Part shown: one piece after another, positions 26,711-47,748 of the stretch | Numbering within the stretch: position 1 is the first letter of the stretch | Layout: each line of letters starts with the position of its first letter | Assembly (NCBI RefSeq): GCF_001469215.1 | Contig: NZ_LOFH01000010.1 | Span: forward strand, 62,001 to 126,000 | DNA from: Pseudoalteromonas sp. H105 | Lineage (GTDB): Bacteria; Pseudomonadota; Gammaproteobacteria; Enterobacterales; Alteromonadaceae | Reading direction: 5' to 3' | Length of the DNA stretch: 64,000 nucleotides | The notes under the pieces: generated by a model | Database searches by the model: none | What the model was told of the DNA's origin: nothing | What the model saw: the letters and a program-made list of their open reading frames with translations, nothing else | Program-made: the position numbers and the translations under genes

Positions 26711-27583
26711 TTATATTGTCGCTGAAAATCCTGACTGCCCATAAGGTGAAGTGGCTCCTTGATAAAACTGCGCGACTCTTACTGCACGAGCGTCGACATC
26801 GGCGTCACGTTTTGCAGTCGCGGTTTCAGGGCTAGAAGTTTTGATAGCTTGGTCATCATCAGTTAATGCATTGTCAACTTTGAACGTTGCACCACCTTGT
26901 TCGCGTTCATCATTACTCGATTCAGTAGTAAGCTCAACTTGTGCTGCTGAGAGCTTTTGCGTGGCATCAGCAGCAATGGCTCTGTCAGCACCTGACGGTT
27001 CTGCGGGCGCAAGCGCTGCCGCTCGCACAGTTTGCATTTTTTCGATCGTTGCTTGAGGGTCACCTTCAATTTCAGCAACATCAATTTGCACTTCACCACC
27101 AACAGCATAATTTTGACCATCCGGGCCACGCTGATATTCATAGCTTGGTGAACCTGCATATTGACCGCCGACAGAAGCATGCGCTTGCTCATGCACCCTT
27201 ACTTCGGTGTCGCGTGCTTTTAGTTCTTTAATCTGTGCGGCATCAAGTTCTTCTTGCTCTGCTGCTTGTTGCTCTTTTTTGTCTTCTTTTTGCTGCTCTT
27301 TACTTTGCTGCTCATTATCGTCAGGGTTTTGCTCACCTTGCTGACGTTCCTGAATAACACTCTCATCTGCTAACTTACCTTTAGCATCATAGGTTGCATT
27401 CTCGGATGAACCTGATGACTTGGCTTTTTCGTTGTCACCGAGCGCTTTATTTTCAGTATTACTTGGTTTCGCTGCTGCAGGAGGGGGGATTACTTCACGG
27501 AGCTGATTGTCACGCCGAGCACTTTCCGTATAAACATTTGCACTGTTTATACTAACGTTTGGAAAGGGCGTGACAATGTTCAT
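26711..27583 (-). CDS. SprA-related putative metalloprotease
   Basis: 290 residues. The N-terminal half (20-115) is low-complexity, rich in Gln, Glu and Lys, and probably disordered or coiled. The C-terminal domain holds TEVRVHEQAHASVGGQYAGS with a zinc-type HExxH motif (His131-Glu-Gln-Ala-His135) and YEYQRGPDGQNYAVGGEVQI, the signature of the SprA-related (CJM1_0395-type) family. No signal peptide. The gene starts 6 bp after the flagellar-like miniprotein gene, so the two are co-transcribed and probably coupled. Substrate unknown. Confidence 0.82.
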   Translation of the reverse strand: MNIVTPFPNVSINSANVYTESARRDNQLREVIPPPAAAKPSNTENKALGDNEKAKSSGSSENATYDAKGKLADESVIQERQQGEQNPDDNEQQSKEQQKEDKKEQQAAEQEELDAAQIKELKARDTEVRVHEQAHASVGGQYAGSPSYEYQRGPDGQNYAVGGEVQIDVAEIEGDPQATIEKMQTVRAAALAPAEPSGADRAIAADATQKLSAAQVELTTESSNDEREQGGATFKVDNALTDDDQAIKTSSPETATAKRDADVDARAVRVAQFYQGATSPYGQSGFSATI

Positions 27584-27589
27584 ATATCA

Positions 27590-27898
27590 TTAAACTCGCA
27601 CATCAATGAGTGTGCCCAGCACTTCATCTGCTGTTTGTATTGATTGCGTATTTGCTTTAGCGTTGAACTCTTCAACTTTAAGGCTGACTAATGCTTCATC
27701 TATACGCGCAGGTTGTGCGACAGGTGCAGTAACCGCCTCTTCTGGACGCGCAGCCTGAAGTTGGCGCTGCTGAGCCAGTTGCGCATCATCTTGTTGCTCA
27801 ATGCTGGCACGGTTTATCTCTGCACTCGCCTTTTCAATACCTTGGCTGGCACGGTTAAACCCTTCTACCCCATTATTAAATACAGATCCGATTGGCAT
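27590..27898 (-). CDS. Flagellar rod/hook D0-like miniprotein
   Basis: 102 residues. The C-terminal segment EFNAKANTQSIQTADEVLGT resembles the C-terminal D0 helix of axial proteins such as FlgG/FlgE (family pattern ANxKxIQTADExLxTLI). The N-terminal segment SVFNNGVEGFNRASQGIEKA could be the partner helix. The linker (40-68) is Gln/Ala/Pro-rich. The large middle domains of real rod and hook proteins are absent. Strong ribosome site GGAGGTG. No flagellar genes are in the window. Paired with the SprA-related protease gene; whether it joins the flagellum is unknown. Confidence 0.75.
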   Translation of the reverse strand: MPIGSVFNNGVEGFNRASQGIEKASAEINRASIEQQDDAQLAQQRQLQAARPEEAVTAPVAQPARIDEALVSLKVEEFNAKANTQSIQTADEVLGTLIDVRV

Positions 27899-28000
27899 AT
27901 TACACCTCCACCAATGATAGACTTAGATTAATTATCGCTCATAAAACAAACAAAATAAAGTATAAACCCCTTATATTTACAGGGCTGTGGCGGTTAAATT

Positions 28001-46797: not shown

Positions 46798-47748
46798 ATG
46801 TCGGGTGTTTTAGCTTCTGTAGATCAACGAACCCAGCTGGTCGGCGAAAATCGTCTTGAACTGCTATTATTTTATTTACACAGCCGCCACCTTTTCGCGC
46901 TTAATGTGTTTAAAGTAAAAGAGGTTGTGAAACTACCTCATTTAAACATCATACCTCATGCCCACCCTAAAATTTCAGGGGTGGCAAATATCCGAGGAGA
47001 ATCTATTCCTGTTATAGATTTGCGCCAAGCTATTTGTATGCCCGCAGCTAAAAATACTGAAGACAGTAACTTAGTTATTACTGAGTATAATCGTACTGTA
47101 CAAGGCTTTTTAATTGGAAAAGTTGATCAAATTGTTAATATGACTTGGTCAGATATTATGCCTCCACCCACTTCTGTAGGTAAAAATCACTACTTAACAG
47201 CCCTGACCAAAGTAAAACGTGATGGCCAAGAGCAACTCGTTGAAATTATTGATGTAGAAAAAGTACTGGCTGAAATTGTTGAATACGAAGTGCAAATTTC
47301 TAATGAAATACTTGATCAAACCATTGTTAACGAATTTGCTGGCCGTAAAATTTTACATGCTGATGACTCACCCACAGCACGCAAGCAAGTGAGTGACACA
47401 CTCTCGCAATTAGGTATTGAAATAATCCCAGCCAGTAACGGTTTAGAAGCCCTTACAATGCTGAAGGATTGGGCTGATCGAGGTGACAATCTAGAGCAAG
47501 ATTTATTGATGGTGATAACCGATGCAGAAATGCCCGCGATGGATGGCTACCGTTTAACCCACGAAATCCGTAATGATGACCGCATGAAAAACTTGTATGT
47601 TGTATTAAATACGTCACTAAGCGGTAGTTTTAACCAAGCTTTAGTTGAGAAGGTAGGCTGCAACGCCTTTTTATCTAAGTTTCAACCCGACTTACTGGTT
47701 GAAGAAGTTCAAAATCGCTTAAAAGCAGTGCTTGAACAGAACAAATAG
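46798..47748 (+). CDS. cheV: Chemotaxis coupling protein CheV
   Basis: 316 residues: CheW-like domain (20-165, LFALNVFKVKEVVKLPHLNI and GVANIRGESIPVIDLRQAIC) and a receiver domain (185-315, KILHADDSPTARKQVSDTLS, phospho-acceptor in VITDAEMPAMDGYR). Links chemoreceptors to CheA and tunes their signal. Single gene with its own promoter region of about 260 bp shared with the channel gene. Confidence 0.95.
   Translation: MSGVLASVDQRTQLVGENRLELLLFYLHSRHLFALNVFKVKEVVKLPHLNIIPHAHPKISGVANIRGESIPVIDLRQAICMPAAKNTEDSNLVITEYNRTVQGFLIGKVDQIVNMTWSDIMPPPTSVGKNHYLTALTKVKRDGQEQLVEIIDVEKVLAEIVEYEVQISNEILDQTIVNEFAGRKILHADDSPTARKQVSDTLSQLGIEIIPASNGLEALTMLKDWADRGDNLEQDLLMVITDAEMPAMDGYRLTHEIRNDDRMKNLYVVLNTSLSGSFNQALVEKVGCNAFLSKFQPDLLVEEVQNRLKAVLEQNK

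Follow-up and report, generated by a model that had tools for sequence, protein, structure and literature searches.

The window analysed here, a stretch of 64,000 nucleotides from Pseudoalteromonas sp. H105 (contig NZ_LOFH01000010.1, positions 62,001 to 126,000), carries on its reverse strand two adjacent genes. One encodes a 102-residue protein resembling the terminal D0 part of flagellar rod and hook proteins (27590..27898; hereafter the miniprotein), and the other a 290-residue SprA-related (PF12118) putative zinc metalloprotease (26711..27583; hereafter SprA). Our reading, to which we give a probability of roughly 0.57, is that the two genes form an accessory pair exported by the FlhF-type (polar-type) flagellar secretion apparatus, with the miniprotein as the structural partner of SprA. 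The miniprotein family is homologous to rod and hook proteins, the two genes are paired, they co-occur with FlhA and FlhF, and they are absent from their usual place in two relatives. In these respects the proposal of the initial annotation, that a mini axial-type protein and a protease are made together and tied to the flagellum, is borne out. In addition, others have shown flagellum-dependent release for one relative, a SprA-related protein of Campylobacter jejuni (PMC5223770).

Taken alone, the miniprotein of the window is only weakly similar to flagellar models (NCBIfam FlgE, E 0.023; FlgE in the PDB, E 0.41); it does not match Pfam Flg_bbr_C (PF06429) and scores below every curated cut-off in the Pfam and NCBIfam scans. 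The C-terminal similarity that had been predicted for it emerges at the level of the family. A profile (A1) built from an alignment of 30 members gave nine hits among 177,635 PDB sequences, the best eight of which are FlgE, FlgG and hook-associated protein 1; two of these lie below 0.001 (E 2.6e-4 and 3.3e-4), and the other flagellar ones range from 0.028 to 1.2. Columns 53-93 of A1 align to residues 362-402 of FlgE, its own C-terminus, and columns 7-33 align to FlgE 3-29 with a score of just 2.4 bits. At E up to 1, Flg_bbr_C is matched by 25 of the 30 members (best 8.1e-6), the NCBIfam FlgE model by 26 (best 6.4e-5), and flagellin models by only two (best 0.18). PF00460 is absent from the families listed for these 30 window-type members. 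Among nine more distant stand-alone miniproteins searched at E up to 0.1, PF06429 was found in eight (best 1.2e-11, L292) and PF00460 in four (best 3.7e-8, L280), and L204 matched neither. The PF00460 match is over the cut-off in L280, L283 and L244 and below it in L279, and all four of these proteins match PF06429 as well. FlgC is matched as well, by L283 at 4e-20 and by L292 at 2e-20, both under the FlgC cut-off.

In the A1 alignment both ends are conserved and the middle is free, the spacer between the helices being variable. An AlphaFold2 model of the miniprotein (mean predicted local distance difference test score, pLDDT, 69.6; predicted template modelling score 0.50) consists of two helices, residues 3-48 and 64-101, with nothing folded between them, which agrees with the earlier description of terminal helices without middle domains. 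The C-terminal helix (residues 65-101, 27596..27706) aligns to the C-terminal end of FlgE both by phmmer (E 0.41) and by the profile. The N-terminal one (residues 3-33, 27800..27892), with its sub-threshold alignment to FlgE, is the probable counterpart of the rod-protein N-terminal helix. The F-x-x-x-hydrophobic sequence is the export gate motif of rod and hook substrates, and it occurs within the first 20 residues of 24 of the 30 members; we give this little weight, the pattern being loose. Foldseek searches with the miniprotein model returned only generic helical hairpins (best E 0.07), and the homology to rod and hook proteins therefore rests on the sequence profiles, which we consider to establish it for the family.

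The distribution of the pair was examined in 197 genomes of the order, searched with the miniprotein, PF12118, FlhA and FlhF. The miniprotein of the window itself matches in 72 of them at E up to 0.01, three of the matches (G026, G068, G097) falling in open reading frames (ORFs) of 408-418 residues, the size of FlgE. Profile A1 likewise matches ORFs of about 400-430 and 262-278 residues (E 5e-6 to 4e-4), called FlgE-like and FlgG-like here by size only. Counting A1 matches in short frames, listed to about E 3.6e-4, the miniprotein is present in at least 99 genomes, SprA in 92, and both in at least 84. In 77 of the 92 SprA genomes the miniprotein gene precedes SprA on the same strand, at a distance of up to 1.5 kb (75 by script; G152 and G160 were seen to be adjacent by inspection). 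The other 15 comprise seven with a miniprotein elsewhere and eight without a listed one, two of which (G025 and G085) have an A1 match at about 5e-4, frame not shown. The named loci are the best 80 of at least 402 confirmed; 36 belong to Pseudoalteromonas and the others to Rheinheimera, Alishewanella, Idiomarina, Alteromonas, Colwellia and more. In all 80 the miniprotein is upstream of SprA (79 by script, plus L142, in which 4 bp separate the end of the hit from the SprA match), and in the 79 scripted loci the spacing is within 34 bp in 74 and 480 bp in one. Thus, the conservation of the two genes together, on which the first proposal depended, is seen in both sets.

Apart from the window's own locus, the miniprotein search at E<=0.01 yielded 29 loci. 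SprA follows directly in 23, and the six in which it does not, all of family f11, have a short downstream partner instead. At greater distance, no miniprotein was found near SprA in the loci L290, L291, L293, L294 and L296. In G448, which belongs to a different class of the phylum and is probably an alphaproteobacterium, the locus L292 (6178-8636) carries SprA and, 0.9 kb downstream with an opposed gene between, a 145-residue FlgC-like stand-alone protein.

Both genes are linked to the flagellum. FlhA was detected at E up to 0.001 in 151 of the 197 genomes (145 over the cut-off; that of G096 rests on a fragment). FlhF over the cut-off, taken as the marker of polar-type flagella, was detected in 128; below the cut-off this model also matches related GTPases, in 196 genomes. 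All 92 SprA genomes and all of the at least 99 listed miniprotein genomes have FlhA, and all have FlhF over the cut-off. Neither gene is among the matches listed for the 46 genomes without FlhA, nor for the 23 that have FlhA without FlhF, in five of which (G110 included) FlhA apparently scores under the cut-off. Fisher tests of the link to FlhA give 7e-16 for SprA and 1e-17 for the miniprotein, uncorrected for kinship. Among the 128 FlhF genomes, at least 107 have either gene. The pattern recurs within families: 13 of the 14 genomes of the window's own family have FlhA, FlhF and both genes, and the remaining one, without FlhA, has neither; the sole FlhF genome of the 13 in family f7 is the sole one with either gene; and the ten FlhF genomes of family f11 are the ten with a miniprotein. 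In the phylum set, SprA was found in 24 of 299 genomes; FlhA was detected at E up to 0.001 in 237 of the 299, and these include all 24 (compared by eye). Occurrence in species without flagella, which the initial annotation had named as evidence against itself, was not seen in the 46 FlhA-negative genomes of the order. Its alternative of a separate filament-like system is not supported, since in the order set neither gene was found without FlhA and FlhF.

Two relatives show the absence in place. Outward from the pair, the window carries bioH (identified by a model search) and then a comF-like gene, an M14-like peptidase gene and an nfuA-like gene (by recognition). G072, which belongs to the same family and lacks FlhA, has the same four neighbours in the same order, followed by an unrelated gene, and no miniprotein was detected at the usual place beside bioH. 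In G110, a member of family f11 without FlhF, both flanks are as in L205, with 224 bp where L205 has the pair, and these 224 bp give no A1 hit at E up to 1. The one weak A1 match somewhere in G110 (E 6.5e-4, frame not shown) may be FlgE. A chance neighbourhood was considered as the cause of the flagellar link and rejected: bioH, over its cut-off in 82 of 114 genomes searched, is kept in the FlhA-negative G072, G011, G101 and G083 and in the FlhF-negative G110, and the neighbourhood itself therefore does not track flagella. A phage origin of the pair was likewise rejected, as no PHROGs match was found.

The Flg_bbr_C genes of this genome sit on another contig. The claim that no flagellar genes lie nearby holds for structural genes, as judged by comparing the window ORFs with one 100-kb flagellar region of the same genome. 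Three hits were obtained. Two are ORFs resembling two-component proteins; the third, a 316-residue ORF at 46798-47748, far from the cluster, shares 50% identity with a protein from the flagellar region and is perhaps, at a guess, CheV. In the loci L238-L240, probably from Pseudomonas, the miniprotein lies beside a bioD-like gene; the gene at this place in Pseudomonas aeruginosa PAO1 is probably PA0505. Among the surface proteins captured in one study is PA0505, with its localisation given as unknown (PMC3511353).

The downstream protein is a member of PF12118 (E 9e-49; 167 bits against a cut-off of 27.3), a family predicted to be zincin-like (PMC3650047). It carries the putative zinc-binding motif HEQAH at residues 131-135 (27179..27193), so that its first description as a SprA-related HExxH protein was apt. 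H131, E132, A134 and H135 are invariant across 20 aligned SprA proteins. The long Gln/Glu-rich tail attributed to it is not a tail: the Gln/Glu-rich stretch, at about residues 78-116, precedes the HEQAH core. In the AlphaFold2 model, pLDDT is above 90 from about residue 101 to 220 and low in the tails. Neither SprA alone nor a SprA profile matched anything in the PDB below E 0.19. A protein of Pseudoalteromonas sp. 3D05 shares 94% identity with the window's SprA. The two ORFs have the coordinates, the common strand and the 6-bp spacing first given for them, and the very strong ribosome site noted for the miniprotein gene is indeed present as GGAGGTG at 27903..27909, just before the ATG; similar GGAGG sites occur upstream of the miniprotein in close relatives. 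No comparable ribosome site was seen before the SprA ORF, which makes translational coupling to the miniprotein gene plausible.

In some genomes the second gene has lost its protease core. Fourteen of the 15 genomes with a miniprotein and without SprA were examined for neighbours. Eight (G036, G076, G094, G138, G142, G163, G186 and G187) have a downstream partner of 137-196 residues that keeps the start of SprA and lacks HExxH; in the other six (G021, G045, G128, G189, G171 and G182; four of family f21, two of f6) no such partner was seen beside the miniprotein. From 21 SprA proteins a profile of residues 1-48 (27440..27583 in the window), a candidate export or docking signal, was built and run against 1701 ORFs. 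Its ten best hits are ten core-less partners, each encoded immediately after a miniprotein (E 2.6e-13 to 0.0025). In a separate run, the profile found all 75 tested SprA ORFs of the named loci. A profile of the SprA C-terminus supports three core-less partners, weakly. The pair can thus persist after loss of the enzyme, and in Alteromonas-like lineages the N-terminal segment serves some purpose besides proteolysis. It was not detected in several paired families, and is therefore no general docking signal; a universal docking role was not borne out, given its absence from f6 and other pairs.

The SprA proteins of family f6 (L037-L045) are 414-570 residues long, with long Ser/Thr/Asn/Gln-rich N-terminal regions, and in some f6 loci the pair lies downstream of what appears to be a ThiH-like gene. 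In genomes of family f21, perhaps Vibrio, the gene after that of the miniprotein is conserved, encodes about 419 residues beginning MPKLNL and is unlike SprA (L204 6538-7797, L206 4481-5740, L208 6362-7621, L215 6234-7613), a possible alternative partner.

Upstream of the miniprotein gene, a scan of the named loci revealed a conserved promoter-like element, CTTTATTTT-N16-ATAATTA (27929..27960, reverse strand), present with at most two mismatches in 49 of the 80, against 0.05 of 80 in mononucleotide shuffles; the relatives are not independent. The window's element is the sole exact copy in its genome, and across the genome it shows no enrichment (33 matches at up to two mismatches, against 47 for a reversed control). 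In this genome, sigma-28-like sites precede the probable flgM and fliD genes and two flagellin genes, and a sigma-54-like site precedes a rod-protein-like gene, all named by recognition. Control of the pair by sigma-28 or sigma-54 is not supported, its element differing from those sites. Several genera other than Pseudoalteromonas (L125, L132, L160, L166 and others) have as the -10 region, immediately before the miniprotein gene, the near-palindrome TGGTTAATAATTAACCA, a possible regulator site.

In axial proteins, the two terminal helices contain the information for export and make up the packed inner core. Our proposal, in which we infer export, contact, catalysis and target, is as follows. 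The upstream gene would encode a stand-alone D0 domain, a rod/hook paralogue cut down to its two terminal helices, and the downstream gene a zinc-metalloprotease-like protein. Both proteins would be secreted via the flagellar type III export channel, where the miniprotein would count as a substrate of the rod/hook class. The miniprotein would be the structural partner of SprA, a carrier or an anchor at the rod, the hook or the channel exit, in this lineage perhaps through the conserved N-terminal segment of SprA. The protease would then act on a surface or extracellular target and would not be needed to build the motor.

Several observations weigh against this proposal. Either gene is found without the other (SprA without a listed miniprotein in 8 of 92 genomes, a miniprotein without SprA in 15 of the 99 listed), and therefore neither strictly needs the other. 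A flagellum does not guarantee the pair: for 21 of the 128 FlhF genomes neither gene is among the matches listed, including all 11 genomes of family f2; family f21 has 11 FlhF genomes with no SprA and four miniproteins, and family f3 has ten with nine SprA and four miniproteins. The genomes are related, and the counts are thus not independent. The N-terminal segment was undetected in the paired SprA proteins of f6, L052, L167-L170, L175 and L178 and in the SprA-only loci L216, L219, L221 and L222. Fold comparison of the SprA model gave generic helices, with no zincin among the 50 listed matches, which are Foldseek's own candidates. Finally, the promoter-like element is unlike the genome's sigma-28-like sites.

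Other explanations share part of this evidence. The miniprotein might be a cytoplasmic export chaperone or inhibitor, a D0-like coiled coil that keeps SprA unfolded or inactive and passes it to the export gate. Its small size, the partner-first gene order with the protease 6 bp after, and partners that remain together even without the protease core would suit such a role, but six of the 14 SprA-less miniprotein genomes examined have no protease-less partner beside the miniprotein, and the C-terminus keeps an axial-protein pattern that a chaperone would hardly need. PA0505, the probable counterpart in P. aeruginosa, was moreover captured on the cell surface (PMC3511353), and we find the chaperone role doubtful. 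We also think it improbable that the pair performs a building step of the polar flagellum, in which SprA, positioned by the miniprotein, would trim a rod, hook or cap protein or make an opening in the envelope. The tie to FlhA and FlhF, the absence of the pair in place without them and the D0 homology all agree with a building step; against it stand eight examined genomes with FlhA and FlhF and no protease core, and the 21 FlhF genomes with neither gene among the matches listed. In C. jejuni M1 and 81-176, moreover, the SprA-related CJM1_0395 is present in wild-type supernatants and absent in flgG mutants, and its deletion leaves growth and the wild-type motility rate unaffected and lowers adhesion and invasion, less than two other mutants do (PMC5223770). 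By analogy, the idea of a step at the flagellar base that serves assembly or quality control is somewhat disfavoured, because motility persists in that mutant and the protein reaches the supernatant in a flagellum-dependent manner (PMC5223770).

The link to the flagellum could also be indirect, if the two are cytoplasmic proteins serving a cell-pole or surface-attachment programme and this programme disappears along with flagella. The genes do lie outside the flagellar cluster, beside housekeeping genes, and their promoter element differs from the flagellar type found in this genome; however, the homology of the miniprotein to rod and hook proteins and the flagellum-dependent release of a SprA-related protein in C. 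jejuni (PMC5223770) make this very unlikely. A more specific form of the exported-pair reading, which we hold only tentatively, is that the miniprotein is an unrecognised structural subunit of the inner axial core of the polar flagellum (at the rod, the hook or the channel exit) that anchors a separately encoded exported protease, some lineages discarding the enzyme and keeping the scaffold. If that were true, an enzyme-bearing flagellum would be assembled from two proteins.

The preferred reading remains that of an exported accessory pair. The two genes are conserved together in Gammaproteobacteria with polar-type flagella, bear a clear flagellar signature and are absent where that flagellum is missing; our literature searches found no work on the pair, nor, among the titles listed, any on the miniprotein. 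The pair points to flagellar export as a route by which a dedicated enzyme and a minimal axial-type protein are delivered together, and the flagellum-released SprA-related protein of C. jejuni gains a likely kind of partner.

Among known proteins, the miniprotein is closest to the family of FlgB/FlgC/FliE and FlgE/F/G (PF00460, PF06429): by profile it has the C-terminal helix of that family, and some distant relatives have both termini. It differs in that the window-type miniproteins, of about 77-111 residues, are shorter than FlgC, that the spacer between the helices is variable, and that the gene sits outside the flagellar cluster. FlgJ, the rod cap plus a muramidase, is likewise a flagellar protein of two parts that is exported, and some lineages lack its enzyme half; however, it has another fold, another substrate and no D0 partner. 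CJM1_0395 of C. jejuni belongs to the same SprA-related family and reaches the supernatant in a flagellum-dependent manner, but no miniprotein partner is mentioned in the available part of the paper, and the mutant is motile (PMC5223770). The likeness to flagellinolysin (PMC5595980) would be that an axial flagellar protein comes together with a zinc metalloprotease, which the flagellum brings to the outside of the cell. Flagellinolysin, in contrast, is one fused flagellin carrying a gluzincin domain in the filament. Rather than a protease inside a flagellin, the window has two separate genes, an axial part of rod/hook-type D0 that best matches FlgE and FlgG, and a PF12118 protein.
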